From Methylovulum psychrotolerans (GTDB taxonomy: Bacteria; Pseudomonadota; Gammaproteobacteria; Methylococcales; Methylomonadaceae), in contig NZ_PGFZ01000005.1 of assembly GCF_002923755.1 (NCBI RefSeq), positions 64,743 to 128,742 of the forward strand: DNA of 64,000 nucleotides, read 5' to 3'. Below, piece after piece: positions 394 to 17,641 of the stretch. The notes beneath the pieces are model-generated. The model saw only the letters and a list, made by a program, of their open reading frames with translations. It had not been told where the DNA came from and did not search any database. The stretch's first letter is position 1. The number at the start of each line of letters is the position of its first letter. A program made the translations under genes and the position numbers.

Positions 394-536
394 AAGCGCC
401 TTCCTTATGTCTAAAAGGGCGGTATTATGGAGCCGTTTATAAATAATTTGAAGCCAGTAGCCCTATGCGGAATGTCGGCTTTATAATTGACGTTGCTTTC
501 GCCGTCTCCGGCCTTTCCTTCTTAAAATCTCACGTC

Positions 537-2282
537 ATGTACTATCAAGGCATAAAAAAAACCATTGTTCTGCGTCCTGTACCGAAACAGCAAGGGTACG
601 GAACCGATATGCACCCCTTATTAACGCGGATTTTTGCCGCCAGAGGTGTGCTGACAGCTGCCGAATTGGACAGAAGCTTAGCGAAACTACCGTCGCCGTG
701 GCTGTTATCCGGCATGGAAAACATGGTCGCGCACCTCATCACCGCCTTGCAAACGCAACAACGCATTGTCATCGTCGCCGATTTTGATGCCGACGGGGCG
801 ACCAGTTGCGCGGTGGCGATGCAAGGCTTGCGCTTGCTGGGGGCAGGGCAGGTGGCGTTTATCGTGCCGAACCGCTTTGAATACGGTTACGGCTTAACGC
901 CGGAAATTGTCGAACTGGTCAAGCAACAGCAACCGGATGTGCTGATCACCGTCGATAACGGCATTTCCAGTATAGAGGGCGTTGATGCCGCCAAAGCGGC
1001 GGGCATTATTGTCCTGGTCACCGACCATCACCTGCCGGGTACGCACTTGCCCGCCGCCGATGCCATCGTCAACCCCAATCTGCCCGATGATACTTTTCCG
1101 AGCAAAGCCATTGCCGGGGTGGGGGTGATGTTTTATGTCTTAATGGCCTTGCGTAGCCGTCTGCGCGAGCTGGGCTGGTTTACCGAGCGGCAACTGCCCG
1201 AACCCAATCTGGCGCAACTGCTCGATTATGTCGCCTTGGGTACGGTGGCCGATGTTGTGGCGATGGATGCCGTCAACCGCACCCTAGTGTATCAAGGCTT
1301 ACAGCGCATCCGTATAGGCCGTGGCCATCCGGGGATACAGGCCTTGATTAAAGTGGCGGGCAAAAATCCGCTGGCGCTCAACCCCAGCGATTTGGGCTTT
1401 GCCTTGGGGCCGCGCCTCAATGCCGCCGGACGTATGGACGATATGTCTTTAGGGATTCAGTGCCTGTTGACTGACAGCGACAAACTGGCGACCGACATTG
1501 CCATGCAGTTGGATGACCTAAATAATGACCGCCGCGATATTGAAAGCCAAATGAAGTTTGAGGCACAAGCCTTGTTGGCGGATATGAAAAAACTCGACGA
1601 ACACCGCGCCCCGGCGGGGGTCTGCTTATACGATGCCAACTGGCACCAGGGCGTTATCGGCATTCTGGCCGCACGGATTAAAGACCAACTGCACCGCCCG
1701 GTGATTGCCTTCGCCCCGGCGGGCAAGGACTTAATCAAAGGCTCGGCGCGTTCCATTGCCGGGGTGCATATCCGCGACGTATTAAGCGACATCGCCGCCG
1801 CCCATCCGAAAATGCTCAGTAAATTCGGCGGTCATGCCATGGCGGCGGGCTTAACCTTGGCGATGCACGATTATCCGGCCTTTGCCTTGGTCTTTGACGA
1901 ATACGTCCGCAAACGCTTAAACCATGTCGATCTGGAGCAAAAAGTCTACTCGGATGGTGAACTGACCGAGCAGGATATAACCCTAGAACTGGCCGAGCTG
2001 TTGCAAAATGCCGCCACTTGGGGGCAGGGCTTCCCGGAACCGATGTTCCACGGCGAGTTTGATGTCGTGCAAGCGCGTATCGTCGGGCAACGCCACCTAA
2101 AACTGGTGCTACGCTGCGCCCAAGGCCATTTGCTGATTGATGCGATTGCTTTTTTTATCGACCAACCGGAGCAATGGCTGGGCATAAGACGGATTGTCGC
2201 CGCGTATAAGTTGGATATTAATGAGTTTAGGGGGCAGCGTAGTGTGCAATTTATTTTGAATTATTTGGAGAAGTTAGCTTAA
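537..2282 (+). CDS. recJ: Single-stranded-DNA-specific 5'-3' exonuclease RecJ
   Basis: RecJ degrades single-stranded DNA 5' to 3' in recombination and mismatch repair. The sequence shows the DHH phosphoesterase motifs in order: DFDADGATS (motif I), VTVDNGISS (motif II), VTDHHLPG (motif III) and LGTVADVV (motif IV), then the DHHA1 part with KFGGHAMAAGL and the C-terminal OB-fold end YKLDINEFRG.RS. The frame is open from 465, but the ATG at 537 gives 581 residues, close to the E. coli length of 577, and the part before it has no RecJ character, so 537 is preferred. No strong ribosome-binding site is visible. The stop overlaps the stop of the convergent rdrB by a few bases. Codon use is host-like, unlike the neighbouring AT-rich genes. 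Confidence 0.95.
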   Translation: MYYQGIKKTIVLRPVPKQQGYGTDMHPLLTRIFAARGVLTAAELDRSLAKLPSPWLLSGMENMVAHLITALQTQQRIVIVADFDADGATSCAVAMQGLRLLGAGQVAFIVPNRFEYGYGLTPEIVELVKQQQPDVLITVDNGISSIEGVDAAKAAGIIVLVTDHHLPGTHLPAADAIVNPNLPDDTFPSKAIAGVGVMFYVLMALRSRLRELGWFTERQLPEPNLAQLLDYVALGTVADVVAMDAVNRTLVYQGLQRIRIGRGHPGIQALIKVAGKNPLALNPSDLGFALGPRLNAAGRMDDMSLGIQCLLTDSDKLATDIAMQLDDLNNDRRDIESQMKFEAQALLADMKKLDEHRAPAGVCLYDANWHQGVIGILAARIKDQLHRPVIAFAPAGKDLIKGSARSIAGVHIRDVLSDIAAAHPKMLSKFGGHAMAAGLTLAMHDYPAFALVFDEYVRKRLNHVDLEQKVYSDGELTEQDITLELAELLQNAATWGQGFPEPMFHGEFDVVQARIVGQRHLKLVLRCAQGHLLIDAIAFFIDQPEQWLGIRRIVAAYKLDINEFRGQRSVQFILNYLEKLA

Positions 2283-4888
2283 CCAAAGAGCGTTCGGTCA
2301 TGGAATCGGTATTGCCTGCCCCGTTCGTTGATGGTGGCTAAAAAGCCTAACGCGGCCATATCGGTGACACCGTGTTCGCGTAGCACGGCATAGAGCTGGT
2401 AAAAATCGGTGCTCAGGTCATTGGAGAAAATGCCGGGGTCATCAGACCCCAGAGACACCATAATGTCAGGGTCATTGGGTTTGGCAAAACCGGGTACTTT
2501 CATCCAGCGTAGCGAGTGGTGTTCACGGTGGTGCTGGTATTGGCTGACCCGCACATTGCTGGTCGGCAATGTTTCAATGATAACCCGCCGCTGTTGCACA
2601 TCGGTCATGGCGCGTTGTTGAAGCCGTATCAGCGTCGCTTCATCGAGATACTTGGCATCAACCTCAATTAGTTTTTCGCTGCGTTGCCAAAGGTTGGAGT
2701 TTTGCCACCAGTGGGCTAATGAAGTTAAATCCGCACCTTCTTCCTTAGCTTGATGGACAAGCCGCGCCTCTTCGCGCCACGCATCACTGAACGAAGCGGA
2801 TTGCCAAAACCAAGGGGTTTCTTTATCGAGACAAGCGAAGACAAATTTAGGCCATAGCCCCCTGTGTTGCATTAACATGTCGGCAGCTTCGCAACTCATC
2901 GGTTTTGCAAAAATAATCGTCGCCAAACGGGTAACCTCACTTGCCAGCTTTTGGGTGGCTTGTTGGCTGTCGGGGCATTCACGCAGATAACGCCAAGCTA
3001 CCAGTAAATCCAGCAACCATTCGCCTTGGCGGACTACCAGCTTTGTGGGCATACTCGCCAGCCACAGCTTAGGGTCTATGCCGAGTGCCGTACCATGACC
3101 GATACGGTCGCCGTCTTTAATGTCCAGCAATTCCAGTGCGTCAGCCACTTGGCGGATGCCGCTGATAAGATGGGTAAAGTCTTCGCCAGCATGATAGGTT
3201 TTATGGGTCAGGCCATGCCGATGGCAGACGCGGAAAAATGGCGCAAAAACCTCTGGTGAGGCATGTAGTTCGTTAGCGGCGGCATCTATGCCGCAGAGCC
3301 AGTACCGAAGTAGAGGCCAGCGTTTTAGGGTTTGGCACAGGGCGTTTGTCCGTGTTTCCAGCGAGAGCCGTAATGCGGCATGGCGATAGCTTTTTTCATT
3401 ATCGTGCTTCCATGACAGTTTAACGAAATGAGCCACTAACGTCAGTTTTAGGTGGGAATGGTGGCCGAGCCTATTAAGTTTCGGTACTTGTTCTTCAAGC
3501 GCTGTAAGTATCTTAGAAAGATTATGAGAAGAGGTATTGGCGTTTGTTTTTCCGGTTTGTAGATAACACAGATAAGCACCGAGAATGCTGGTAAGCAACG
3601 CACTATTTTTTTCAATGTTTTCTTTAGGGGCAAAGCGGCCTTCTACCCAGCCAGTGCGGCTGTGCTGTTGAATCGTGCCGTTCATTTGCCGAAAGCGATA
3701 GTGATAGTCTTTTTCGGCTGGTTCGCGCAAATCCGTTAAGGTGTATTTTTGGAACTGATCAAAACCGTACATATCTTGCCGTTGGACGGTCAGTTGTAAA
3801 TATTCATTTTGGAGCAGCAAATAAAGGTGTAACAGGCGGTCTGCTAATGGATCTGGGGTTGTTATCAAGCGTTGCAATAAGGTAAGCAACCAATTCATTT
3901 CAACCTGTATGGCCTTATTTTCTGCATCGTAAAATCGTCCGTCATCGGCAAAAGGCGAGCCGCTACTGAGTAGCTGTTGGATATTAATAGGCGCACAAGT
4001 GGTATTTTGCTTGGCAAGAGGCTCTGCTTGATTGGCAAGGCTCTCTGCCCGACCGTCACTAATAGCAATTAACCAGCACCTTATTTGTTTGGCAAGAAGC
4101 AAATTTTGGCGAAGCTTTGCAGGGTTTAAATCGGGATTGATGCTATGGCAAAGTTCTTGGATTTGGGTGTTTTTATCGTATTTTTTGCAAAAATCAGATA
4201 GTTCAGCGCGTGGATTGAGTAAAGCGCGTTGCCAGCAAATTTCCGCATGGGTGCTGCCGTTTAGGTGTAAATGGGTTTCGTGTAAGCCTTCACGCGCGAT
4301 GTAATCCTCCACAGCGGGATCGTATGGGTAGATTAAAGGGCAAAGTCCGTGTGTATTAGTGGGGGTTAGTGTGCCAAAACGGTTGCTTCCATTGCTATGT
4401 GCATAGGCGGCGGCTTGTACGGGTAAGCTGGAAATACGGCTAAGCACAGCCTGCCACTCGCCATAAGTATCCAGCACTGCATGAAGTTTGCCGTGTTGAA
4501 ATTGCAGATAGCCGCTTTCTAAAGCCCCTAGCATAGGGGCAACCCAATTTCCGGATTTGGCGTGATATTGCTCACAAAGCAATTGCCAACGCGAACGGAA
4601 TACATGATCAGGATGCCTAGACTGCCATGGCTGGTAAGCTAAATAAACCGCTTCTTCCATTCGCTGCGAGACAGGAGTCGAGTAGTCTCCAGAAGCGATA
4701 GTGCCTGAGTTTTCACGAAGCGAAGCGGAAGTGAAAATGCAGGCTATACGAAATCGCGTCGAGTCATTGGAGAGCATGTGAGCCACCCCTTGTTGGGTGG
4801 CGAGCGAGTGACCAGGACGGCTGGGGCAGCCGAAGGCATAAGCGGTCGCGTGATTTTTGCTGATTGACCGGCAAGGATGCCGAAGCAA
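2279..4888 (-). CDS. rdrB: RADAR-type adenosine deaminase RdrB
   Basis: Large (up to 869 aa) adenosine-deaminase-fold protein. All metal and catalytic motifs are present: HLHLN with the HxH pair at residues 206/208, YHAGED (H566, E568), GDRIGHGT (H598), LPTSNVRV near 774, and SLGSDDPGIF at 812-821. Ordinary adenosine deaminases are about 330-350 aa; the long N-terminal part and the insert between the first two motifs match RdrB of RADAR. Family knowledge: RdrB assembles into a large shell and, with the ATPase RdrA, deaminates adenosine nucleotides or RNA to inosine during phage infection. The minus-strand gene upstream is an RdrA-like ATPase, which supports this call. The start is uncertain: the frame begins at a TTG (4888); in-frame ATGs at residue 38 (4777) and residue 77 (4660) are alternatives, and an overlapping frame may hold the true N-terminus (see 4744-5028). 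Name inferred from motifs, size and context. Confidence 0.85.
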   Translation of the reverse strand: MLRHPCRSISKNHATAYAFGCPSRPGHSLATQQGVAHMLSNDSTRFRIACIFTSASLRENSGTIASGDYSTPVSQRMEEAVYLAYQPWQSRHPDHVFRSRWQLLCEQYHAKSGNWVAPMLGALESGYLQFQHGKLHAVLDTYGEWQAVLSRISSLPVQAAAYAHSNGSNRFGTLTPTNTHGLCPLIYPYDPAVEDYIAREGLHETHLHLNGSTHAEICWQRALLNPRAELSDFCKKYDKNTQIQELCHSINPDLNPAKLRQNLLLAKQIRCWLIAISDGRAESLANQAEPLAKQNTTCAPINIQQLLSSGSPFADDGRFYDAENKAIQVEMNWLLTLLQRLITTPDPLADRLLHLYLLLQNEYLQLTVQRQDMYGFDQFQKYTLTDLREPAEKDYHYRFRQMNGTIQQHSRTGWVEGRFAPKENIEKNSALLTSILGAYLCYLQTGKTNANTSSHNLSKILTALEEQVPKLNRLGHHSHLKLTLVAHFVKLSWKHDNEKSYRHAALRLSLETRTNALCQTLKRWPLLRYWLCGIDAAANELHASPEVFAPFFRVCHRHGLTHKTYHAGEDFTHLISGIRQVADALELLDIKDGDRIGHGTALGIDPKLWLASMPTKLVVRQGEWLLDLLVAWRYLRECPDSQQATQKLASEVTRLATIIFAKPMSCEAADMLMQHRGLWPKFVFACLDKETPWFWQSASFSDAWREEARLVHQAKEEGADLTSLAHWWQNSNLWQRSEKLIEVDAKYLDEATLIRLQQRAMTDVQQRRVIIETLPTSNVRVSQYQHHREHHSLRWMKVPGFAKPNDPDIMVSLGSDDPGIFSNDLSTDFYQLYAVLREHGVTDMAALGFLATINERGRQYRFHDRTLFG

Positions 4889-5028
4889 TCTTTCGCAAAA
4901 ATAGCGACTCCCCTTTTGTCTTTGGAAATCGCCTGATGAAAAGGGTGGTTTTCCAGCAAAGCTAATAGGTGGTGATTGGCAAGGACGAAAGGGGGGAGGG
5001 CGGTTGTGGCGGAGGGATCAATAATCAT
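4744..5028 (-). other. Small ORF overlapping the rdrB 5' end: displaced rdrB N-terminus or small accessory protein
   Basis: A 94-codon ORF starts with ATG at 5028 and runs 145 bases into the rdrB frame, one base out of register (-1 relative to itself). Its first 60 residues look protein-like (LLALLENHPFHQAIS, then AIFAKDCFGILAGQSAKI), whereas its last 30 residues are rich in Pro/Ser/Thr/Arg and look like an out-of-frame reading. The opposite holds for the first 20-30 residues of the long rdrB frame. This is what a one-base deletion near the rdrB start would leave. Other readings are a small RADAR-associated protein translated with overlap, or no gene at all. No good ribosome-binding site is seen for either start. 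Confidence 0.35.
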
Positions 5029-5081
5029 TATTACATTATAGTGTTGTAAAAGTCGTCAAAATGGAATCCCATTTTTAAAAA

Positions 5082-5214: not shown

Positions 5215-6294
5215 TTACGATGTTTTTTTTTCAGCATTAACAATAATTTCTTTGTTTAATTTATTAAAAATCAATTCGTTACATCCTATATTACAATCTT
5301 TTTTAGACTTTATGTTCATTGCTTCCAATATATGTAAGGCATTTTTGTTCTTTATTAAACCCAAAACAATAGGGCATGTGCCAATTATTTGGGTAAATGG
5401 AAATTGCTCCATGTTATCCTTATGGGTTTTTATTTTTTCAATAAAATTATCTGGAGAATCATTTGGGTTGATTCTATCGACTCCGGTCTCGATTTTACTT
5501 GTGAAATGGTAATAAGATTCTTCAGCAAAAAATGCGTTTATCAGACAGCAAGCAAACAGTTCCATAATTGTTGCAAGGCCATTATTTCGTTTTTGCGAAT
5601 ATCGTATATCTGAAACACTTAGTAAACTGAAATAAAGTCGGGTCCATACTTTTCCTAAAAAGACCGCCGAAGGACGTATTTCATTTTTGAGGTTTTTTGA
5701 ACGTTCAAGCCAGTCAATTATGCTATCTGCTAACGTATCCAAATTGAGATTAGAAATATCCGGCGTACTATAGCTTGATTGATTGCTATCTTCTGTATTA
5801 TGAATACCTTCTTGCCATGGCATCCCCGAAATAGTTACAACAGATAATAGTTGCCTCAATTCATTAGTGATTCTAGCTTTCTTGTGGTTAATGCTTAGAT
5901 CAGCGGGAAAGTTTTCTTCGATAGAGAAAAAGCGTACGATGATTCCTAAAATATTAAAAATAGAAGCATGTGTTTTAGCTTTAGTGTCAGCAATATTTAT
6001 TATGCTGAAAGCGATTATGGGTATCTGCTCATTTACGGACAAATCAGAAATAATACTTTCTATTATTTCCGAGCCATATCGAGTCAGTCCTATAACGCCA
6101 TTTCCAATGGAACGTGTATTTGACGTGCCAGCAAGCACGCCGCTAGCATGTCGCGCCCAATTCAGAGTATTTTCGTTACGTCCAATACTGAAATAACTTC
6201 TAAAGTGTTGTTCTTTTTTCTTGCTATCCAACGAGTCCCATTTCTCACCTGAAACTAGGTTATATAACATAATACTACCCTGTGCTTGTAGCAT
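5215..6294 (-). CDS. rdrA: RdrA-type RADAR ATPase, C-terminal part (frameshifted off the N-terminal ORF)
   Basis: 359-codon ORF with no motif I can name alone; rich in Ile, Asn, Ser and Lys, and clearly more AT-rich than the housekeeping genes. The frame stays open upstream of its first ATG to 6369, and that extra stretch reads as ordinary protein (FVALAAEVASHCEGRPDY, then AIDYMLQAQG). It overlaps the end of the upstream ATPase ORF, which stops at 6348. Joining the two with a -1 shift between about 6351 and 6371 gives a protein of about 835 aa, in the range of RdrA. So this is best read as the C-terminal half of rdrA, separated by a single-base deletion (or sequencing indel). No canonical slippery heptamer lies in the overlap. 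An independent gene starting at 6294 is the alternative. Confidence 0.7.
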   Translation of the reverse strand: MLQAQGSIMLYNLVSGEKWDSLDSKKKEQHFRSYFSIGRNENTLNWARHASGVLAGTSNTRSIGNGVIGLTRYGSEIIESIISDLSVNEQIPIIAFSIINIADTKAKTHASIFNILGIIVRFFSIEENFPADLSINHKKARITNELRQLLSVVTISGMPWQEGIHNTEDSNQSSYSTPDISNLNLDTLADSIIDWLERSKNLKNEIRPSAVFLGKVWTRLYFSLLSVSDIRYSQKRNNGLATIMELFACCLINAFFAEESYYHFTSKIETGVDRINPNDSPDNFIEKIKTHKDNMEQFPFTQIIGTCPIVLGLIKNKNALHILEAMNIKSKKDCNIGCNELIFNKLNKEIIVNAEKKTS

Positions 6295-6347
6295 ATAGTC
6301 AATAGCGTAATCAGGACGGCCTTCACAATGGCTGGCAACCTCGGCAG

Positions 6348-7727
6348 CTAGTGCAACAAAGCAATTTCTTTACTGGGCTGAGGACGCAGGTAACTGCCAG
6401 TATCGAACTCTCCATCCTCAAGCACCACTCTGAACACAGCGTCATTAAGAGCGTTTATATCGCCTGCACTTAGAGCATTGACATCTATTTGGTGGGAATG
6501 CAAGCTGCCGCGAAACATTGCACGGAAACCTTTAACGACATGCTTAGAAGAAAAATGACGTTCCTCCATATCTTGGGTACAGAATTTGAGCAACTGGGTA
6601 ACGGAGCGCAGTGGTTGTTTGAGGAGAAACTCTCTGTATAGGCTTAAATCCCTTTCACCTTTAATATACAGGCCTTCTTTTAGTAATTGGTCGATAATTC
6701 CATCAAGTGGCTTTGTTAAAGGATCGCTTGCGCCAGCAGCATATTGAACTTTATATTCATAGCTAGGACTTTTCATCAAATCCCATAAAGGTGTCAAATG
6801 GGCGCGTTGATGTAAAGGAAAAAGCTTTTTTAGGTATTGGTCTTCAAGATGGTCGATTAATTTTATTTGTTCATCGCTGCGGTGCTTGTCGCGCTCAAAA
6901 ATGGTTTTGCCCATGTGTTCATAATAATGATCCCGCACCAGTTGGGAATAGAGTTGCAGGTCGCCTGTGATTAACACCACTAAATGAGGGCTATCCAAAT
7001 AACGGCGGATCATCTCAAGCACTTGCTTGCCTTTAGAGAAATTGGTATCAGCATCGTCAATACTGATAATTAGAGCGTCTTTTTTGAGCAACACACAACT
7101 ATCTTCAATGAGCTTTTTAAAGGTTACTGCCAATTCCATGCCGCTTTGCGCCCGCTCTAACCCCCAATTTAAAAAAGCTTCTTCATCTATCCCCTGTAAT
7201 GGATTATTTTTCTCATCTAATAACTGCAAGCCCCCAGCCAGCTTTTTAAATTGCTTACGCCAGCTTTCGTATTTGTCTTCATCAATCGTGAAATGTCGGC
7301 AGAACTTTTGTTCGTCAATTAACTGTTTAAGCTTGTATAGCACAGAAAGAAAAATATGCTCGCCCGTTTCTACTTGCGTAGGGTCTATTTCTATGAGGAG
7401 AGCTAATTTACTATTATTATCGGTTGTCAGCTCTTTAGTCACCGATTTTAAAAAAGTAGTTTTTCCCGCGCCGCGTGTGCCGTCAATAAAAAAAACCGTA
7501 CCCCTGGCATCATCATTAAAATCAGAAAGCTCTTTTTGTCTGGTGGGATTGGCATAATATTCAACCCGTTTATTGATGTCCTCACAAATTTTTTCGAACG
7601 CTTCATATTGAATCAGGCGGAGCTTGGAATTATCTTTGCTGCCTGAGTCATTTCCTGTCGGCAGATTATTGGTAGTAAGATCAAGGATGATTGTTTTAGG
7701 GGTAATAAGGTCAACGAGCATGGTCAT
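6348..7727 (-). CDS. rdrA: RdrA-type RADAR ATPase, N-terminal AAA+/P-loop part
   Basis: 459-codon ORF with a P-loop NTPase domain: Walker A GTRGAGKTT at residues 83-91 and Walker B with the sequence ALIISIDDAD around 218-227, followed by a helical region with LVVLITGDLQLY (sensor-like). It is first in a minus-strand pair followed by rdrB. Family knowledge: RdrA is a ring-forming ATPase of roughly 850-900 aa that works with the deaminase RdrB to stop phage growth. Here the ORF ends early at a TAG (6348-6350) just after QPSKEIALLH, while the -1 frame continues the protein into the 5215-6294 ORF. Start at ATG 7727; a second ATG follows two codons later. The upstream 180 bases hold the likely promoter but no clear -35/-10 pair. 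If truncation is real, the defence system may be inactive. Confidence 0.8.
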   Translation of the reverse strand: MTMLVDLITPKTIILDLTTNNLPTGNDSGSKDNSKLRLIQYEAFEKICEDINKRVEYYANPTRQKELSDFNDDARGTVFFIDGTRGAGKTTFLKSVTKELTTDNNSKLALLIEIDPTQVETGEHIFLSVLYKLKQLIDEQKFCRHFTIDEDKYESWRKQFKKLAGGLQLLDEKNNPLQGIDEEAFLNWGLERAQSGMELAVTFKKLIEDSCVLLKKDALIISIDDADTNFSKGKQVLEMIRRYLDSPHLVVLITGDLQLYSQLVRDHYYEHMGKTIFERDKHRSDEQIKLIDHLEDQYLKKLFPLHQRAHLTPLWDLMKSPSYEYKVQYAAGASDPLTKPLDGIIDQLLKEGLYIKGERDLSLYREFLLKQPLRSVTQLLKFCTQDMEERHFSSKHVVKGFRAMFRGSLHSHQIDVNALSAGDINALNDAVFRVVLEDGEFDTGSYLRPQPSKEIALLH

Positions 7728-7931
7728 ACTGAATCCAAAATAGGGAAGGGGCGTTTATCAATCGCTAGATAGGTTAATAAGTATAGTGGTTGATGCAAAA
7801 ATGTACATAAAGTATTTTTTCCCCGCTTTTTAAGCTTTGAATGGCGATAAAATAAACTTGTCGATTAAGGCCTTTTGGGTTTTAGAAGGTTAAGCCGTTT
7901 GGGCTATTGCTTACAGTGAAAATTAGGCATA

Positions 7932-7963
7932 AAAAAAGGGCGGTCAATAGACCGCCCTTTTTT
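7932..7963. terminator. Bidirectional intrinsic terminator
   Basis: Perfect 14-base stem (7932-7945 with 7950-7963) and a four-base AATA loop, A-run on the left and T-run on the right. It closes the minus-strand peptidylprolyl isomerase operon, whose stop is at 7985, and would also stop plus-strand transcription. It separates this operon from the RADAR island. Confidence 0.9.
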
Positions 7964-7984
7964 GTACCACCTAACGCTGAAAAA

Positions 7985-9064
7985 TTATTTCTTTTTCTCA
8001 GGTGCTGGTTTTGCCGCTTCGGCAGGTTTTTTCTCTTCCGCAGCAGCAGGGGCTTTTTCTTCGGTCACTTCTTCAACCACGACTTCTTTGGCTACAGTTT
8101 TGCCGTCTTTGTCTTTGATTTCTTCTTCAACGACGACTTCTTCGGTGACGGGTTTGGCGGCATCAGCGGCGGCGGGTTTAGGCGCTTCGGCAGGTTTGGC
8201 TTCGTCTTTCAGCGGCATTAAGATGTCGACTTTTGCTTGTTTACGCAAAGTTTCCAACATGGCTTGGACTTTTTTGCGTTGCAGCATCGGGGTCAGTTGT
8301 TCTTTGACGGCTTCAATCGGCGGTGGGGTTTGGGCGCGTGAGTCTTCACGCAAAATAACGTGCCAGCCGAATTGGGTTTGGACAGGTTCTTTGGTGTATT
8401 TGCCTTTTTCTAAGGCGATAACCGCTTTGGAGAACGGTTCGACCATTTGGTTGGCGACAAACCAGCCTAAATCACCGCCGTTTTGGGCTTCTTTGCCATC
8501 TAAAGAGTTTTTGTTAGCCAGTTTGGTAAAATCGGCGCCTTTGTCCAATTCGGCGATCAGTTTTTTCGCTTCGGCTTCAGTTTTTACCAAGATGTGGCGG
8601 GCTTTGTATTCGGTGGTGTTATTGCCGCCTATTTTGCTGTCGTATTCGGCTTTGATTTCCGCGTCAGTGACAGGGTTGGTTTTCATGAAGTTTTCGATTT
8701 CTGCTTGGGTCAGAATCGCTTTTTTGGCTTCTTCCAAACGGCTGATAACATCGGCGCCTTTATCCAATTGTTTTTGTTCGGCATCTTGCACTAACAATTC
8801 GCGTTGGATCAGTTCTTCCAAGAGCTTTTCTTTAGGGAAGCTTTGGCCTTGGGCGCGTTCGGCAATTTCTTTTTCCAGATTGTCGAAGGTCGCTTTGGCG
8901 ATGTATTTGCCGTTAACGACAGCAATGGCATCGGCTTTGTTGACAACAGGGGCGGCGGCGGGGGCTGATGCGGTGCTGCTGCCTGAGGTTGGGGCTTTTT
9001 GGTCACAACCTGTGGCAATCAGGGCAGTGCTAACGATCAGCAAGGGGATAAAGGCTTGTTTCAT
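7985..9064 (-). CDS. Peptidylprolyl cis-trans isomerase lipoprotein, SurA/PrsA-like parvulin
   Basis: 359 aa. A signal peptide with a lipobox-like end (ATGC, Cys20) predicts a lipid anchor. A SurA-N-like helical segment (about 45-140) is followed by one PpiC/rotamase domain (about 152-243) with the marks ARHILV, GGDLGWF and QFGWHVI. The last 90 residues are a low-complexity tail of Lys, Glu, Ala, Pro and Val, unusual for the family and likely disordered. The expected role is folding of outer-membrane or secreted proteins in the periplasm, released from proline isomerization limits. It is last in the yciB-yciI-bolA operon, 14 bases after the BolA-like gene, and ends at a strong terminator. SurA proper has two parvulin domains and no lipobox, so the gene is not named surA. 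Confidence 0.88.
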   Translation of the reverse strand: MKQAFIPLLIVSTALIATGCDQKAPTSGSSTASAPAAAPVVNKADAIAVVNGKYIAKATFDNLEKEIAERAQGQSFPKEKLLEELIQRELLVQDAEQKQLDKGADVISRLEEAKKAILTQAEIENFMKTNPVTDAEIKAEYDSKIGGNNTTEYKARHILVKTEAEAKKLIAELDKGADFTKLANKNSLDGKEAQNGGDLGWFVANQMVEPFSKAVIALEKGKYTKEPVQTQFGWHVILREDSRAQTPPPIEAVKEQLTPMLQRKKVQAMLETLRKQAKVDILMPLKDEAKPAEAPKPAAADAAKPVTEEVVVEEEIKDKDGKTVAKEVVVEEVTEEKAPAAAEEKKPAEAAKPAPEKKK

Positions 9065-9078
9065 TACGGTGTTCCTTT

Positions 9079-9345
9079 TTAGTTTTGTTCAGAGGGTGAG
9101 AGGGCATTAATGCCTAAGGCATGAATTTGTTGTTTCATCAGCTCGCCGAGGGCTTTATAGACCAGTTGGTGGCGTTGCACCAAGGATTTGCCCTCGAAGG
9201 CTTCGGCAACGATAGTGACATGGTAGTGCCCGCCGCCGCTTCTGGCACCGGCATGACCCGCATGGGCGGCACTGTTGTCTAATATTTCCAGCACTTCGGG
9301 GTGGAACGCGTCGGTTAACGCGGTTTTAATAAGGTTGGTTGTCAT
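9079..9345 (-). CDS. BolA family protein
   Basis: 88 aa with the BolA fold pattern: an N-terminal helix, then [27 protein letters not shown], and a conserved HALGI end. BolA proteins pair with monothiol glutaredoxins in iron-sulfur handling or act as regulators; which applies here cannot be told from sequence. A His/Gly-rich insert ([15 protein letters not shown]) sits in the usual variable loop. It overlaps the yciI stop by four bases (ATGA), so translation is coupled. Confidence 0.9.
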
Positions 9346-9644
9346 TGGGGAAATACTTTTTTAAAGGGTTTAACGGTGACGGTGGCATATACGCCCGCGT
9401 CAAGGTAAGGGTCGCAAGCCGCCCAGTCTTGGGCGGCTTGCAGGCTGGCAAATTCGGCGACCACTAAGCTGCCGGTAAAGCCGGCTTCGCCAGGATTGTC
9501 GCTGTCCACCGCCGGATGGGGGCCGGCCAAGACAAGGCGGCCTGCATCCTGCAGGGCCTGTAGCCGCGCCAGATGGGCGGGCCGTGCCGCTAGCCGCAGG
9601 CTGAGGCTGTCAGCGACATCTTCGCTGATAATGGCATATAACAC
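9342..9644 (-). CDS. YciI family protein
   Basis: 100 aa, the full size of a YciI domain (ferredoxin-like fold). It has the family Asp/His region [16 protein letters not shown] followed by LAGPHP and a C-terminal [17 protein letters not shown]. Biochemical role is unknown in most species. It starts one base before the yciB stop and overlaps the BolA-like gene by four bases. The gene order yciB-yciI-bolA-ppiase is conserved in many gammaproteobacteria, which supports the call. Confidence 0.92.
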
Positions 9645-10181
9645 TTATTCCTCCGTTTCGGGCAGGTGTTTATAAAGGTAGATCATTTGTAGCACGATAA
9701 ACAGCACCATCATGCCGGGTACGCCAAAGGTTTTGAAGGTGACCCATTCGTCGGTGCTGAAATGGAACATGACATAGACATTGATAAAACCGACGCTGGT
9801 GAAGAAAATGCCCCACAGTAAGTTAAGGCGTTTCCAGATCGGTTTTGGCAAGGTCAACGTAGCAGACATCATCCGCTCGACAAAAGTTTTCTCGCCGAAA
9901 ATTTGGCTGCCAAAAAAAGCCAAACCGAACAGCCATTCGATAATGGATAATTTCCATTTGATGAATTGTTCGTCTTGCAGATACAGCGTCGCGCCGCCCA
10001 TGACCACGACCAAACCTAGGGTTATCAATTGCATGGCCGGAACGTGGCGGTAACGTAGCCAAGAATAGCAGACCTGAATGCTGGTGGCTGCCATCATCAC
10101 GGCAGTGGCGACATAAATGTCATAAGTTTTATAGGCGATAAAAAATAAAAGGATGGGGACAAACTCAAGGAGTTGCTTCAT
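9645..10181 (-). CDS. yciB: Inner membrane septation protein A (YciB/IspZ)
   Basis: 178 aa when started at ATG 10181 (MKQLLEFVPILLFF); the frame is open to 10244, but the extra 21 residues are hydrophilic and unlike the family. Five or so membrane segments, with the conserved KTYDIYVAT and FGEKTFVERMM regions near the middle and NVYVMFHFSTDEWVTFK near the end. YciB is an inner-membrane protein linked to cell envelope synthesis and septation. First gene of the minus-strand operon; the promoter lies in the 10182-10347 divergent gap. Confidence 0.93.
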   Translation of the reverse strand: MKQLLEFVPILLFFIAYKTYDIYVATAVMMAATSIQVCYSWLRYRHVPAMQLITLGLVVVMGGATLYLQDEQFIKWKLSIIEWLFGLAFFGSQIFGEKTFVERMMSATLTLPKPIWKRLNLLWGIFFTSVGFINVYVMFHFSTDEWVTFKTFGVPGMMVLFIVLQMIYLYKHLPETEE

Positions 10182-10347
10182 AACGGTTGTTTCATAAGCG
10201 GTGTTGGCCAGGTGCGGACGGCTATCGGGAGGGTGAACAGTCACTGTGGCGGTTCAAAATGTCTTCATTGTAGAAGTTTTAGCGAGGAATGTACATGTTT
10301 GAATGGCGGTTTCTGCTAGAATGTCCCTTCTTAACCGGAGGTAAATA

Positions 10348-10644
10348 ATGACAGAAAATAGCCTTATAGAATTGGAGGCGGCGGCATTCAGACGCTTGCT
10401 CAAGCACTTACAGGATCATCCTGAAGTACAGAATATTGACCTGATGATACTTGCCGACTTTTGCCGTAATTGTTTGGCGAAATGGTATGCGGAAGCGGCG
10501 CAGGAGCAGGGTGTCGCCATTGACTATGAGCAGGCCAGGGAGTTTGTTTATGGTATGCCGTATAAGGACTGGAAAAACCAGTTCCAACAAGATGCTAGCC
10601 CCGAACAGTTGGCGGCTTATGCGCGTAAACAGGAGCAAAAATGA
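10348..10644 (+). CDS. DUF1244 family protein
   Basis: 98 aa; typical full DUF1244 protein with DLMILADFCRNCLAKWY and FVYGMPY..WK. The CRNC motif suggests metal or redox chemistry, but no function is established. A strong ribosome-binding site (GGAGG) lies eight bases before ATG 10348. It overlaps the following methyltransferase by four bases (ATGA), so the two are translationally coupled. Confidence 0.9.
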   Translation: MTENSLIELEAAAFRRLLKHLQDHPEVQNIDLMILADFCRNCLAKWYAEAAQEQGVAIDYEQAREFVYGMPYKDWKNQFQQDASPEQLAAYARKQEQK

Positions 10645-11378
10645 CCAGTACCGCCCCATACCATGCGATGTTTTCAGGCGCTATCGGTAAAGATTACGAG
10701 ATGTTGAAGCTGTTGTCGCCGTTAGCGGTGGAAATGAGCCGACTGGTCGGTGTGACGGTCAGTGAGTTTCCAAAACCGCCCGGGCAAACCCTGCATGTCG
10801 TCGAATTGGGCGGTGGTACGGGTATCACTACCTTGTCGATATTAGCGGCGCGGGAAGCTTTGCACGTCCTCAGTATCGATAATGAGCCGGTGATGCAAAA
10901 CCAAGCCAAGCAGAATTTGCAAGTTTGGCAACAGCAAGGCAAGCTGGCGTTTTGCGGCGATGATGCCTTAACGGCTTTACAGGCCTTGCCGAGTGCAAGT
11001 GTCGATGTGGTGGCTTCGGCTTATACCTTGCATAACTTCCCTAACACTTACCGCCAGCAGGTTATCGCGGAAATCTTCCGCGTTTTAGTGCTGGGCGGGC
11101 TGTTCGTGAATGGCGACCGTTACGCGCTGGATGATGTCGATTTACACACCCGCACGACCCAAGCCGAGGTCAGCGGTTATTTCCGCATTTTGGTGGCGGC
11201 TAATAAGCTGGATTTGTTGGAGCATTGGATTGTGCATCTGTTCAGCGACGAATCGGCCAACCACATTATGCGCGAGACCTTGGCTTTGGAGGATTTGGCG
11301 GCGGTTGGTTTTACCAGCATCTGTTTAAGCCAGCGTTGTCAAGTCAACGCGCTGGTCACGGCACATAAGCCGCATTAG
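10641..11378 (+). CDS. Class I SAM-dependent methyltransferase
   Basis: 245 aa. The SAM site is visible: VVELGGGTGITTL (motif I, about residues 51-63), LSIDNEP (motif II) and VDVVASAYTLHNFP (motif IV), then EIFRVLVLGGLFVNGDRY. The substrate is not recognisable; the layout resembles small-molecule (UbiE-like) methyltransferases. Coupled to the DUF1244 gene upstream, so a shared job is likely but unknown. It ends about 45 bases before the hrcA promoter. Confidence 0.85.
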   Translation: MTSTAPYHAMFSGAIGKDYEMLKLLSPLAVEMSRLVGVTVSEFPKPPGQTLHVVELGGGTGITTLSILAAREALHVLSIDNEPVMQNQAKQNLQVWQQQGKLAFCGDDALTALQALPSASVDVVASAYTLHNFPNTYRQQVIAEIFRVLVLGGLFVNGDRYALDDVDLHTRTTQAEVSGYFRILVAANKLDLLEHWIVHLFSDESANHIMRETLALEDLAAVGFTSICLSQRCQVNALVTAHKPH

Positions 11379-11423
11379 CCCCAAGCACTTGAATCTCAGT
11401 CATTCTTAAGGCCTTAAGCCCTG

Positions 11424-11452
11424 TTGACAAGCGTTTGATGAGCTGATATTTT
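11424..11452 (+). promoter_or_regulatory. Sigma-70-type promoter of hrcA
   Basis: Perfect -35 TTGACA at 11424-11429, a 17-base spacer and -10 TATTTT at 11447-11452. It sits just before the CIRCE element, which would cover the transcription start, the usual layout for HrcA repression. Confidence 0.8.
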
Positions 11453-11458
11453 CGCCCT

Positions 11459-11485
11459 TTGGCACTCTCTCTGTACGAGTGCTGA
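11459..11485 (+). promoter_or_regulatory. CIRCE operator (HrcA binding site)
   Basis: Inverted repeat TTGGCACTC, nine-base spacer, GAGTGCTGA. It matches the CIRCE consensus 9-9-9 with one change per arm. Placed between the promoter and hrcA start, so HrcA probably represses its own transcription and read-through into grpE-dnaK. Confidence 0.93.
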
Positions 11486-11509
11486 TTTCTGTTATTTGTC
11501 GAGGTCGGT

Positions 11510-12568
11510 GTGGGCAAGCATACGCAATTATTAAATGAACGGTCACTGCAATTATTAAAAACCCTGGTCGAGCGCTATATCAGCGACGGCCAGCCGGTGG
11601 GTTCTAGGGCTTTGTCGAAAGACTCGGATTTAAACTTAAGCCCGGCGACTATCCGCAATGTGATGGCGGATTTGGAAGATTTGGGTTTGGTGCATTCGCC
11701 GCACACCTCCGCCGGGCGGATACCGACGGTCAGCGGCTACCGCCTGTTTGTCGATAGCCTGTTGACGGTGCAGCCGTTAAATGTCCAAGAGCTGAGCCGT
11801 CTGCAAGGGACGCTGGCGGCCCAGCATGATCCCAGCAATATGATCGGCGTGGCGTCGCGGTTGTTGGCGGACCTGACCCAAATGGCGGGTGTGGTGACTT
11901 TACCGCGTCGGGAGATTGTCTGTTTTCGGCATATCGAGTTTTTGCCTTTGTCCCATAACCGGGTGTTGGTGATTTTTGTCACTAACGAGCAGGAAGTACA
12001 TAACAAAATCATTTTGACCGCCAAACACTTTAGCCCCGCCGAATTGCAGCAAGCCGCCAATTACATTAATTCCATGTACGCAGGGCGTAGTTTGAATGCG
12101 GTGCGCGAAGCCGTGATGAAAGATTTGCGCGATGATCAGGAGCGTGTCAACCAAGGCATGTTGGATGCGATTAGCATGGCGCAACAGGTGTTTAATCAGA
12201 ACGAGCAAAAAGACGATTATGTGTTGGCGGGCGAAACCAATTTGATGGGTTTTTCGGAATTGGCTGACCGCGACCGTTTAAAAAACTTGTTTGATGCCTT
12301 TTATCAGAAGCAGGGCGTTATCGATTTGCTGGACCAGTGCATGAAGGCCGATGGCGTACAGATTTTTATCGGCGAAGAATCCGGTTATCAGGCTTTTGAC
12401 CATTGCAGCTTGGTGACTTCTTCTTATTCCGTCAGCGATGAGGTGGTCGGGGTGTTGGGCGTGATAGGCCCGACCCGTATGGCTTACGAAAAAATCATCC
12501 CTTATGTCGATATTACCGCAAAATTATTAGGCGCAGCCTTGAATCCTAAATCGACACCCCCATTGTAG
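11510..12568 (+). CDS. hrcA: Heat-inducible transcription repressor HrcA
   Basis: 352 aa, full length. N-terminal winged helix with SKDSDLNLSPATIRNVMADLE and HTSAGRIPT.GYR (DNA-binding), then the GAF-like central region and the C-terminal IGPTRM.Y.K..PYVD motif. HrcA binds CIRCE and represses chaperone genes until GroEL is titrated by misfolded protein. Start is GTG at 11510, with GAGG seven bases before; it lies 25 bases after the CIRCE operator. First gene of the hrcA-grpE-dnaK cluster. Confidence 0.96.
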   Translation: MGKHTQLLNERSLQLLKTLVERYISDGQPVGSRALSKDSDLNLSPATIRNVMADLEDLGLVHSPHTSAGRIPTVSGYRLFVDSLLTVQPLNVQELSRLQGTLAAQHDPSNMIGVASRLLADLTQMAGVVTLPRREIVCFRHIEFLPLSHNRVLVIFVTNEQEVHNKIILTAKHFSPAELQQAANYINSMYAGRSLNAVREAVMKDLRDDQERVNQGMLDAISMAQQVFNQNEQKDDYVLAGETNLMGFSELADRDRLKNLFDAFYQKQGVIDLLDQCMKADGVQIFIGEESGYQAFDHCSLVTSSYSVSDEVVGVLGVIGPTRMAYEKIIPYVDITAKLLGAALNPKSTPPL

Positions 12569-12641
12569 GCCTAAGCTATCTGTATTCTACGCCCTGTAGG
12601 CCGTAGTCAGGCGCGTTTTAAACGGTGTGGTGGTTTTATAC

Positions 12642-12743
12642 GGTTAGCGAAGCCGTTCGTGCTGAGCTTGTCTAAGCCTTGTGCTGAGCTTGTCGAAGCC
12701 CTGTGCTGAGCTTGTCGAAGCAAAAAAAACGGCTTCGCTAACC
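12642..12743. repeat. Three tandem 22-base repeats inside a 16-base inverted repeat
   Basis: In the 233-base hrcA-grpE gap, a perfect 16-base inverted repeat (12642-12657 and 12728-12743, arms GGTTAGCGAAGCCGTT and its complement) encloses three head-to-tail copies of a 22-base unit beginning at 12659, 12681 and 12703 with core GTGCTGAGCTTGTCGAAGC. The first copy has one base changed (TCTAAG). The core is a class of short interspersed repeat seen often in proteobacterial chromosomes (from memory). It could form a long stem-loop in the hrcA-grpE transcript. Not CRISPR: there are no spacers. Confidence 0.85.
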
Positions 12744-12801
12744 CGTAAGCTATCCGCTACCCATGACACATACCCACTAACATCCCATAAAGGTAGAGAT
12801 A

Positions 12802-13407
12802 ATGAGTAACGAGCAGGAAATCCCGGTAACGCCAGTAGACCCTGAAATTCAGGCCGACGTACCCGCCGAGGCGGCCAGTGCAGAGGCCGCAGAAACGGTT
12901 GACGAGACTGAGATCATGGAGCCGGAATTGACCGTGGAAGGTCTGAAAAAAGACTTGGCGCAGGCGCAGCAAAAAGCCCAAGAAAATTGGGATAAGGCGT
13001 TGCGTATCCAGGCGGAAATGGAAAACCTCAAACGCCGTACCCAAAAAGATTTGGAAGATGCGCATAAATTCGCCCTGACCGGCTTTGCCAAAGAATTGTT
13101 GCCTGTGCTGGACAGTTTGGTATTAGGTCTGCAAGCGGCGACAGGCGATAGCGAGCAGGTGCAAAAATTCCGTGAAGGCAGCGAGTTGACCATCAAGCAG
13201 TTTGAAGCCGCGTTGGCAAAATTTAATGTCGTCACTATCGACCCAGTCGGCGAACCGTTCAATGCCGAGCATCACCAAGCGATGGTTATGCAGGTGGTCG
13301 AAGGGGCGGTGCCGAATACGGTAGTGACCGTGTTCCAAAAAGGTTATTTACTGAACGGACGTTTGCTCCGTCCGGCGATGGTTGTCGTCGCTAAAGCAGC
13401 AGATTGA
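12802..13407 (+). CDS. grpE: Nucleotide exchange factor GrpE
   Basis: 201 aa. Acidic N-terminal tail, then a long coiled coil (QAQQKAQENWDKALRIQAEMENLKRR..KD) and the C-terminal beta domain with PVGEPFNAEHHQAMVM and the GYLLNGRLLRPAMVVVAK end. GrpE exchanges ADP for ATP on DnaK. ATG 12802 is preceded by AAGGTAGAG. It follows hrcA after the repeat-filled gap and is 83 bases before dnaK. Confidence 0.96.
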   Translation: MSNEQEIPVTPVDPEIQADVPAEAASAEAAETVDETEIMEPELTVEGLKKDLAQAQQKAQENWDKALRIQAEMENLKRRTQKDLEDAHKFALTGFAKELLPVLDSLVLGLQAATGDSEQVQKFREGSELTIKQFEAALAKFNVVTIDPVGEPFNAEHHQAMVMQVVEGAVPNTVVTVFQKGYLLNGRLLRPAMVVVAKAAD

Positions 13408-13490
13408 TAACAGGCTTGAAATTAGAAAAACCAGCCTCATATCGTCCATAACAACAAACATTTTTACTAAATTCAAGTCTGGAGAATTCA

Positions 13491-15419
13491 ATGGCTAAAA
13501 TAATTGGCATAGATTTAGGAACCACCAATTCCTGCGTCGCGGTACTGGAAAACGGTGTCGCTAAAGTTATCGAAAACAGCGAGGGGGCGCGTACTACGCC
13601 TTCTATCATCGCGTTCAGCAGCGACGATGAAGTGTTGGTCGGCCAATCGGCAAAACGCCAAGCCGTCACTAACCCTAAAAACACCTTATTTGCTATCAAA
13701 CGTCTGATCGGTCGCCGTTTCAAAGACGACGTGGTACAAAAAGACATCAAAATGGTGCCTTACAATATCGTTGAAGCCGAAAATGGCGACGCATGGGTCG
13801 ATGTGCATGGCAAAAAAATGGCCGCACCGGAAATTTCCGCCCGCGTGTTGATGAAAATGAAAAAAGATGCCGAAGCGTATTTGGGCGAAACCGTCACCGA
13901 AGCGGTCATCACCGTCCCTGCGTACTTTAATGACTCACAACGTCAAGCAACTAAAGATGCCGGACGTATTGCAGGTCTGGACGTTAAACGTATCATCAAC
14001 GAGCCGACTGCGGCGGCGTTGGCGTTTGGTATGGACAAACCGAAAGGCGACACTAAAATTGCCGTGTATGACCTAGGCGGCGGTACCTTTGACATTTCTA
14101 TCATTGAGATTGCCGAAATTGACGGCGAACATCAGTTTGAAGTGTTGGCGACTAACGGCGACACCTTCTTAGGTGGCGAAGATTTTGACTCGCGCGTTAT
14201 CGAATACCTGGCGGAAGAATTCAAAAAAGACACCGGCGTGGATGTCCATAACGACCCATTGGCGTTGCAACGTTTGAAAGAAGCGGCGGAAAAAGCCAAA
14301 ATCGAATTGTCTTCCAGCCAACAAACCGATGTTAACTTGCCGTACATCACCGCTGATGCTACTGGCCCAAAACATTTAAACGTTAAACTGACCCGCGCCA
14401 AATTGGAAGCGTTGGTTGAAGAGTTGATCAACCGCACTAAAGGCCCTTGCGAAATGGCGCTGAAAGATGCCGGTTTGTCTGCAAAAGACATCAACGACGT
14501 TATCTTAGTCGGTGGCCAAACCCGTATGCCGAAAGTCCAAGAAATGGTTAAGGCCATTTTTGGCCAAGAACCCCGCAAAGACGTTAACCCTGACGAAGCG
14601 GTGGCTTTGGGCGCGGCTATCCAAGCGGGCGTTTTGGGCGGCGAAGTTAAGGACGTGTTGTTGCTGGACGTTATCCCACTGTCTTTAGGTATCGAAACCC
14701 TGGGCGGTGTCATGACCAAGCTGATCGAAAAGAACACCACTATCCCAACCAATGCGTCACAAGTGTTCTCGACGGCAGATGACAACCAAACCGCAGTGAC
14801 CGTGCATGTATTGCAAGGTGAGCGTGAAAAAGCGTCGGCCAACAAATCGTTGGGCCGTTTTGACTTGGCGGACATCCCACCTGCACCACGCGGTGTGCCA
14901 CAAGTTGAAGTGTCGTTTGATATTGATGCTAACGGTATCTTGAACGTATCGGCTAAAGACAAAGCGACCGGCAAAAAACAATCTATCGTGATTAAAGCGT
15001 CTAGCGGTTTGTCTGATGACGAAGTCGAACGTATGATTAAAGATGCCGAAGCCCATGCTGACGAAGACCGTAAACTGACGGAGTTAGTCCATGCGCGTAA
15101 CCATGCCGACACCATGATCCATGCGACCGAAAAGTCCGTGAAAGAGTTGGGCGACCAAGTCAGTAGCCAAGAGAAAACCGAGATTGAGCACGCGGTAGAA
15201 GCGTTGAAAGCGGCACTGAAAGGTGACGACAAAGACGACATCGAAGCCAAAACCAATGCCCTGACCGAAATATCCGGCAAATTGGCGGAACGCGTTTATG
15301 CCCAAAAAGGCGCGGCAGAAGGCGGCGAAGCCCACAGCCAAGCTGGCGGCAGCCACCACGCGGCAGATGACGGTGTAGTCGATGCCGAGTTTGAAGAAGT
15401 GAATGACGATAAGAAGTAA
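13491..15419 (+). CDS. dnaK: Molecular chaperone DnaK (Hsp70)
   Basis: 642 aa. ATPase domain with [41 protein letters not shown] and [10 protein letters not shown]; linker [15 protein letters not shown]; substrate domain; Gly/Ala-rich tail ending in [13 protein letters not shown] (DnaJ/GrpE-dependent type). ATG 13491 has a GGAG site seven bases upstream. dnaJ is not next to it but 20 kb away on the other strand, with dapB. Two hairpins including a terminator follow. Confidence 0.98.
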
Positions 15420-15428
15420 GGTGCGCTT

Positions 15429-15453
15429 GGGTTAATGCCATAGGCGTTAACCC
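15429..15453 (+). other. Stable hairpin after dnaK
   Basis: Eleven-base stem GGGTTAATGCC / GGCGTTAACCC with one G-T pair and an ATA loop, just after the dnaK stop. It has no U-run, so it probably protects the mRNA 3' end in front of the real terminator. Confidence 0.6.
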
Positions 15454-15461
15454 TATTCTTA

Positions 15462-15506
15462 CCGGAAGCCGGAAGTTGTCCTAATGGGATGGCTTCCGGC
15501 TTTTTT
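15462..15506 (+). terminator. Intrinsic terminator of the hrcA-grpE-dnaK cluster
   Basis: Nine-base stem CCGGAAGCC (15462-15470) with GGCTTCCGG (15491-15499), followed at 15501 by six T. Confidence 0.85.
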
Positions 15507-15602
15507 GTGTGCTGACGGTGTGGGTATTTAAGTATAATAGCGTTACTCTGGCGACAAATAGGGCAACCTATTACTGCCAACATTTCATTGAGGATAAGCA
15601 AG

Positions 15603-16247
15603 ATGAAAACTTTTCGGAATTTGTATATTAATTTAAATGGTTACGATATCGACAGTTTTATCGGGCAATTGACTGAGTATTGTTTAAACTGTGCGGGTAG
15701 CTGGAAGCGAAATTTTGAACGCGAAGAAAATGCCAGATACTTCAATGAAAAGGCTTTTGCTTTTGAATATATCGGCGCAGAGGGTATTGTCAGTGCCGGA
15801 GTCACTTTGTTTCAAAACGACGCAGGGTTATGGTATGTGCCGAATATCATTCCCATAGCGTCCAATCAACTTAGCATAGACGAATATAACAAGCTTTTGC
15901 TTGACTTCAAAGAGAGTCTTGTTGATCCTGTCCGTAAAAATACGCCCATTATTGATGTTAAATTGACACCAGAACAGGTCTCTTTAAAGGATATAGTGGG
16001 TGAAGAGGCCGTGGAGGCATTGCAACGGTTTTCTGCTTCTGCCAATAAATTTACAGGCAATGCCCATCCTAATGATAAAAAAAGGTGGTTTGAGTTTTTA
16101 TCCGCCGCACAGAAATATCATACAGTCTTGCATGATGATATTTTAAAAGCTACTTTAATAGAGCAGGGTTGGTCTGAAGAATGGGCGGACAAATTGGCTT
16201 TTGAGTTTGAATACGGTTGCGATTTGCTGGATTTTGTCGGAGCCTAA
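15603..16247 (+). CDS. Hypothetical protein, partner of the PIN-like gene
   Basis: 214 aa from ATG 15603 (an AGGA site lies 11 bases upstream). I do not recognise the family. It is soluble, has mixed charge, no signal peptide, a Trp/Phe-rich C-terminal half (KKRWFEFLSAAQKYH, then a GWSEEWADKLAFEFEYG end). It stops at 16247, two bases before the likely TTG start of the PIN-like gene, and its last codons hold the ribosome-binding site for that gene. The pair is thus co-translated. An antitoxin, a specificity factor or an immunity protein are all possible; none can be shown from sequence. Slightly more AT-rich than dnaK. Confidence 0.65.
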   Translation: MKTFRNLYINLNGYDIDSFIGQLTEYCLNCAGSWKRNFEREENARYFNEKAFAFEYIGAEGIVSAGVTLFQNDAGLWYVPNIIPIASNQLSIDEYNKLLLDFKESLVDPVRKNTPIIDVKLTPEQVSLKDIVGEEAVEALQRFSASANKFTGNAHPNDKKRWFEFLSAAQKYHTVLHDDILKATLIEQGWSEEWADKLAFEFEYGCDLLDFVGA

Positions 16248-16249
16248 CA

Positions 16250-16951: not shown

Positions 16952-16981
16952 TTGGTAACCATGTACTTATTCCCCGCCGCC

Positions 16982-17641
16982 TTAATGGCATTGCCAAAAC
17001 GCCGTATCGGCAAACACATACATCACGCCCGCATCACCCAAATTCATATCAATAAACGCTTCATCAAACTGCAAGAGAAAATGTCCATCATACTCGTCGC
17101 TTTGTAGCCAGAGAGGTTTGCCGGCGGCATAAGATGCCGAAAATACGGCATTCCTTAATTGCTCTAAGGGGTTTTCCTCATCATATTCCTCCGGCTCGTC
17201 AAAGATACTTTCAGGGACTCTGACGGGAGTTAGCTGATAACCGCTGGCTTGGTCGCTTTCCCGAAGGGTCTCGGACGGTTCGCCTTGGTCGATGTCATCT
17301 TGGGATAGGGCGATCAGGACGGTTTCTGGGGTATGGGGTTCATAGGCTCCGTTGTCTATGCGGTCACTGATAAATAGCGCGACGGCCCGCGCATTGGCGA
17401 GCGTGTCGGTTTTCAGTTCCGGCATGTCGTCTAAGTCGATGGTAAGCAGATGAGCCATTGGCAAGCCATTAAGGCGCGGCCAAGTCATTGGCGCTATGCC
17501 TAGAGGCACTCCGCCGATCCTTGCCACGGTGGTCGCGGTGGGTTCTTGGTCAATGGCCTCGGCTATATAAATAGTTAGCAGGTTGCTATCTGTCGTTTCC
17601 AAGACTTTAGCTGTCAGCTCACGAATCAATTCAATACTCAT
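16982..17641 (-). CDS. DUF1963 (YwqG-like) protein
   Basis: 219 aa, acidic, no signal peptide. It shows the DUF1963 pattern: ARIGGVPLGI and WPRLNGLPMAHLLTIDLDDMP near the N-terminus, a variable middle with GYQLTPVRVPESI, and a C-terminal HFLLQFDEAFIDMNLGDAGVMYVF, ending in WQCH. No enzymatic role is established. It is convergent with the PIN-like gene and upstream-adjacent to, but separate from, the sdhE-sdhB genes (112-base gap). Confidence 0.7.
   Translation of the reverse strand: MSIELIRELTAKVLETTDSNLLTIYIAEAIDQEPTATTVARIGGVPLGIAPMTWPRLNGLPMAHLLTIDLDDMPELKTDTLANARAVALFISDRIDNGAYEPHTPETVLIALSQDDIDQGEPSETLRESDQASGYQLTPVRVPESIFDEPEEYDEENPLEQLRNAVFSASYAAGKPLWLQSDEYDGHFLLQFDEAFIDMNLGDAGVMYVFADTAFWQCH

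Follow-up and report, generated by a model that had tools for sequence, protein, structure and literature searches.

The window (the whole 64,000-nt stretch of DNA analysed here) carries, on an island between recJ and a peptidylprolyl isomerase gene (here called ppiC), a RADAR operon that has very probably been inactivated twice, rdrA by a 10-nt deletion and rdrB by the insertion of a 254-bp repeat. In this assembly both lesions, their sizes and the integrity of the homologous loci are matters of direct observation, and the system as a whole has most likely been lost. With rdrB interrupted as well, a point absent from the original prediction, the whole system is most naturally read as lost. 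Both events appear to be recent, because no further stops or shifts were seen and the catalytic motifs are intact.

Layout and identity of the operon

Judged from its sequence, the locus is a RADAR operon composed of rdrA (ATPase) and rdrB (nucleotide deaminase), which adjoin on the same strand and whose reading frames are both interrupted. The minus-strand ORF at 7727–6348 encodes 459 aa and is ended by a TAG at 6350–6348. The −1 frame, also on the minus strand, is open from 6369, after a TAA at 6372–6370, to 5215 (384 aa from stop to stop) and begins with the residues RNCFVALAAEVASHCEGRPDYA. The two frames overlap by ~20 nt, and this overlap reads AGT AAA GAA ATT GCT TTG TTG CAC TAG. The features of the island and its flanks are as follows.

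465–2282, plus strand: recJ, one flank of the island (NCBIfam TIGR00644 recJ, above cut-off)
2279–4660, minus strand: rdrB body, adenosine deaminase, 793 aa from the ATG just past the repeat (match to 8fnw_A)
4662–4915, minus strand: dispersed repeat of 254 bp, inserted in rdrB (other copies in the same genome)
4916–5028, minus strand: first 37 codons of rdrB plus 2 nt, with the ATG at 5028 (matches the RdrB start, L063 and L064)
5215–6369, minus strand: rdrA C-terminal piece, 384 aa, −1 frame, helical lobe (matches to 8hr7_A and 8fnt_B from residue 476)
6348–7727, minus strand: rdrA N-terminal piece, 459 aa, AAA+ ATPase part (8hr7_A, PADLOC and NCBIfam matches)
6365–6372, minus strand: rdrA break point, where 10 nt present in homologues are absent (spacing and alignments)
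7985–9064, minus strand: ppiC, the other flank (NCBIfam peptidylprolyl isomerase models)

The two rdrA ORFs match consecutive stretches of the same E. coli RdrA (PDB chain 8hr7_A, 947 aa): the N-terminal piece aligns with residues 13–473 (E = 2.2e-56), and the C-terminal piece takes over from residue 476 (E = 1.4e-22), covering 476–699 and 712–829 in 8hr7_A and 476–829 as a single stretch in 8fnt_B. By this homology, which is far beyond chance, they are therefore successive parts of one protein. The original prediction, that the gene is rdrA with a net −1 shift, its ORF stopping at 6348 and the same protein continuing in the −1 frame open from 6369, is thus borne out by the E. coli matches to both pieces.

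Profile searches agree with this assignment. The PADLOC RdrA model matches the N-terminal piece (6.9e-27), with no PADLOC match to the C-terminal piece alone, and the PADLOC RdrB model matches the rdrB body (4.2e-23), which also aligns with residues 24–797 of 8fnw_A (E = 3.8e-149). The best RADAR-named NCBIfam models were RdrA (NF041743) for the N-terminal piece (E = 2.8e-48, 165 bits, under the cut-off of 600) and RdrB (NF041744) for the rdrB body (128 bits, under the cut-off of 800). With their curated cut-offs not reached, these two models seem to have been built on a different RADAR subgroup.

The AAA+ ATPase expected of a RADAR system is present in the N-terminal piece with its Walker A (G88/K89/T90), Walker B (D224/D225), sensor 1 (D256) and sensor 2 (R374) residues; the helical C-terminal lobe is encoded, but in the −1 frame past the 10-nt deletion. 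The large adenosine deaminase RdrB retains the active-site motifs HLNGS, HAGED, GHGTA and SDDPGIF, and it is the start of its gene that is interrupted. E. coli RADAR is impaired by mutation of any of three crown residues; of these the window retains E151, but has Y in place of K150 and G in place of R162, in a region that is variable.

The E. coli systems (PDB 8hr7, 8fnt and 8fnw; strains W284 and 1303) likewise have rdrA followed by rdrB, with AAA+ and deaminase motifs at matching places. Their rdrA, however, is one gene of 945–947 codons, whereas in the window rdrA is split by the 10-nt deletion and rdrB by the repeat. The closest relatives found are Methylococcales MAG AMbin140 (L064) and Methyloglobulus morosus (L063), with best-segment RdrB identities of 71% and 73%, respectively. 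The N- and C-terminal halves of RdrA are 60% and 48% identical to L064, in which both parts lie in the same frame. Unlike the window, L064 has rdrA as one open frame and an uninterrupted rdrB start; the rdrB start is also uninterrupted in L063, whose contig begins just upstream and in which rdrA is not seen.

Size of the rdrA lesion

The loci used for comparison comprise 77 from the RdrB alignment (one genome per species), five from viral contigs (IMG/VR) and named plasmid and E. coli records. Integrity was counted over 85 loci, leaving out L144, whose match is short and weak, and L030, which is the same stretch as L122. Broken copies of rdrA or rdrB are rare in this 85-locus sample, in which nearly all loci were picked by RdrB similarity and badly decayed copies are under-represented. 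An rdrA match is present in 81 of 85 loci, with an open frame of at least 700 aa in 79 of these 81; the two short cases are L092 (206 aa) and L136 (289 aa). The rdrB gene is open across the matched span in 83 of 85. Its two exceptions are Kluyvera genomosp. 3 (L137), where rdrB (6001–8303) is broken into several frames, and E. coli 1303 (L052), where a single in-frame stop, at codon 130, interrupts rdrB (6916–9315), which is annotated as two genes. In both of these rdrA is open, whereas the window has both genes hit.

Both rdrA halves are matched in 40 of the 85 loci, near-duplicates such as L079 and L141 included, the other 45 being without upstream sequence or too distant for one query. In all 40, the two halves lie in one open frame. 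A search for homologues with two separate genes at the break, the case that the original prediction had named as speaking against it, found none among these 40 loci, and a two-gene RdrA was rejected on this comparison.

The spacing between the halves shows how large the lesion is. Normalised for length, the gap amounts to +6 nt in 36 of the 40 loci and to −4 in the window, a difference of 10 nt; the window value was obtained by hand, residue 454 of the N-terminal piece ending at 6366 and residue 1 of the C-terminal piece starting at 6369. Spacings other than +6 occur in L104 (−30), L116 (−87), L139 (+21) and L140 (+9), and in L104, L116 and L139 one of the two matches stops or starts at least 21 residues from the break. 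In a motif scan, for which rows were chosen by the YLRPQ motif with spacing left unconstrained, all 23 of 23 rows have seven residues from RPQ to the next N, the last two being L and then R or K, whereas the window has 11 nt there. At the DNA level, alignment with L064, the closest locus found with rdrA, displays a 10-nt gap at the break between well-matched flanks. MAFFT places this gap between 6367 and 6366, with an ambiguity of a few nucleotides; wherever it is placed, the L(R/K)N motif loses its conserved Leu, while in the −1 frame the Asn keeps an Arg codon before it. Since the halves are 10 nt closer in the window and the alignment with L064 opens a 10-nt gap, the rdrA lesion is, by comparison with its homologues, a 10-nt deletion, and neither a homopolymer error nor programmed frameshifting.

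Deletion as the cause, as originally proposed, is thus upheld, but its size is 10 nt and not the single base suggested; and where the lesion had been placed in either the genome or the assembly, an assembly artefact becomes less likely given the 10-nt size.

The same L064 alignment contains other gaps that are not multiples of three: 19 and 7 nt near 7642 and 7523, a cluster of 5, 10 and 3 nt near 6071–6029, and 4 and 5 nt near 5325 and 5209. They were not counted as lesions, given that the reading frame of the window remains open at these points and protein similarity continues in one frame.

A dispersed repeat within rdrB

The repeat at 4662–4915 follows rdrB codon 37 and is 254 bp long, with sharp ends common to its copies. 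In a DNA search (40 of 53 candidates scored) it had at least 38 other matches in the same genome, fragments counted, and N gaps divide some copies into more than one such fragment; a further 14 full-length copies show 98.8–99.6% identity. The copy number is a lower bound, because contigs end inside copies. Six contigs (C14, C17, C20, C21, C43 and C56) begin or end within a copy, and the repeat fragments the assembly. In the class-wide RdrB search, the first 84 residues of the ORF from TTG 4888 had a 92% match on a different contig of this genome. Relatives of the repeat are present in 90 of 151 family genomes, own included (five candidates or fewer scored in each genome, so that copy numbers are not comparable).

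On the upstream side of the repeat, the ATG at 5028 opens 37 codons, MIIDPSATTALPPFVLANHHLLALLENHPFHQAISKD, that match the RdrB start in L063 and L064; on the downstream side, MEEAVYLAYQPWQSRHPDHV carries on the same RdrB protein. The length of 254 is 2 modulo 3, and the codon phases on either side fit an uninterrupted rdrB once the 254 bases are discounted; the codon count across the junction agrees with L063 and L064, with none extra and none missing. With the phase fitting once the repeat is discounted and the codon count agreeing with these two relatives, rdrB was most likely still intact when the repeat inserted.

The element is short, multi-copy and too small to encode its own transposase, as a MITE would be; the terminal inverted repeats (of at least 12 nt) and target-site duplication of a MITE were not found. 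No inverted repeats of at least 12 nt occur in 4560–5060, and no target-site duplication was seen by eye in the flanks of the repeat, where no codon is added relative to L063 and L064. At E up to 1, nothing in Rfam matched the repeat, and its predicted RNA folds are stronger than those of shuffled sequences on both strands (z −4.3 and −3.1). The fourth base past the right end of the repeat is G in 19 of 19 flanks and in 6 of 6 further ones (24 distinct, as one of the six has the same first 12 bases as an earlier flank), and the three bases between that end and this G are variable. Within the repeat, an ATG at 4777 (minus strand) lies behind AAGGGG and in frame with rdrB, and could provide a foreign leader of 39 residues. 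Elsewhere in rdrB, at 4007–4048, a 21-bp unit occurs twice in tandem (80% match); its length is a multiple of three and the frame is kept.

Alternatives, consequences and origin

That a single base was deleted from rdrA, or misread in sequencing or assembly, would agree with the net shift of −1 and with the A-rich spot at which it occurs. This is distinctly improbable. The conserved blocks are 10 nt closer together than in the homologues, so one-base deletion or read error is not the explanation: the window falls 10 nt short of a near-constant spacing, without room for the Leu of the L(R/K)N motif. Moreover, over ~14 kb (7988–21844) of window genes shared with two relatives, one of which shares only up to 15416, no sense-strand gene is split; in three cases there two window ORFs correspond to one ORF of a relative, and these were read as antisense shadows. 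An artefact of assembly or consensus that removed 10 nt from an otherwise intact rdrA is no more credible. The genome is a draft of 97 contigs with N gaps and with contig ends inside repeat copies, and this assembly is fragile at repeats, as several contigs end in the repeat and N gaps lie next to it. The rdrA break, however, lies outside the repeat and outside any long homopolymer, the genome is reported to be 99.99% complete with 0.15% contamination, and rdrB has an independent lesion. Nor is the latter a misjoin at a repeat, because both sides of the copy at 4662–4915 are rdrB.

The remaining readings are less probable still. Programmed −1 ribosomal frameshifting, yielding a short and a long RdrA, would draw on the ~20-nt overlap of the frames and on a shift of the right sign, yet is so improbable that it can practically be dismissed: no slippery heptamer of the form X XXY YYZ was seen by eye in the overlap, as the original prediction had stated, and the arrangement occurs in 0 of 40 homologous loci, in keeping with its view that the shift is unlikely to be programmed. 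In addition, the product would be three residues short and would lack the conserved Leu, and rdrB is broken too. A working two-piece RdrA, in which an AAA+ piece acts with a separate C lobe and the repeat supplies the start of RdrB, is very improbable. The N-terminal piece does retain all the AAA+ motifs checked, and ATG 4777 is in the rdrB frame behind the Shine–Dalgarno-like AAGGGG; but the C-terminal piece has no ATG, GTG or TTG before 6294 and no ribosome-binding site was seen there, both the beginning of the lobe and the opening 37 codons of rdrB would be lost, and the N-terminal extension of RdrB forms part of the dodecamer interface according to PMC9994260. It is equally hard to credit that the operon makes a lobe-less AAA+ RdrA together with an RdrB whose N-terminus is replaced from the repeat ATG, giving a RADAR system that is reduced or differently triggered. 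The points that speak for residual function are that all catalytic residues checked in RdrA and RdrB remain, and that the in-frame ATG inside the repeat could in principle start an altered RdrB.

Inactivation of both genes is thus the preferred reading, and its expected consequences can be set against what has been described for other RADAR systems. According to PMC9994260, E. coli RdrA is a heptameric AAA+ ring whose C-terminal helical lobe is proposed as the sensor, and E. coli RdrB is a dodecameric shell in which the N-terminal extension helps to form the two-fold interface. The same paper reports phage-triggered conversion of ATP to ITP and protection for E. coli RADAR, and defence dependent on both proteins for that of Citrobacter (PMC9994260). 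In the window, the 10-nt deletion would make the AAA+ part of rdrA run on into the wrong frame, leading to a stop after 459 aa, and the C-terminal lobe, the proposed sensor, would not be produced. The 254-bp multi-copy repeat after codon 37 would sever the native start of rdrB, and presumably no working RADAR would be made. As RdrB activity can be costly, loss of the system may have been either tolerated or favoured; overexpression of RdrB is described as toxic without phage in PMC9994260.

RADAR is an already known system type and no new mechanism is involved; the decay is ordinary but instructive. It offers a clean case of an anti-phage operon hit by two independent events with all checked catalytic motifs still readable. 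Motif-based annotation of defence systems could count such a broken operon as present, as PADLOC models match both the N-terminal piece of rdrA and rdrB. The locus also illustrates that a net −1 shift is not proof of a one-base change, and that the spacing in homologues needs to be checked. Finally, it adds to the catalogue a RADAR operon of Methylococcales type, the closest relatives found being from that order.

Several features, taken together, point to horizontal acquisition of the island between recJ and ppiC. A strong RdrA match occurs in the own genome only, among 101 genomes (own plus 100 relatives), five other RdrA matches being weak and confined to part of the ATPase region at 21–28% identity. 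RdrB at E up to 1e-20 is likewise restricted to the own genome among 369 class genomes (own included). The ppiC gene, matched by several NCBIfam peptidylprolyl isomerase models, all below their own cut-offs, was found in 18 of 19 other genomes of the genus (E ≤ 1e-60). In 8 of the 18 relatives with the ppiC locus, no more than 1.5 kb, the length of flank covered by each locus, separates recJ from ppiC, and these relatives belong to a genus in which no RdrA was found besides that of the own genome. The G+C content is 38.7% in rdrA and 49.0% in the rdrB body, compared with 54.8% in recJ and 49.1% in ppiC.

No second copy of the N-terminal RdrA piece, the C-terminal RdrA piece or the RdrB body was found in the own genome (for the RdrB body, 1 of 1 candidates scored). 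The N-terminal piece of RdrA (459 aa) had no relative in a search of the genome contigs collection and no match in phage records. RdrB matches are present in seven plasmid records and in five IMG/VR loci.
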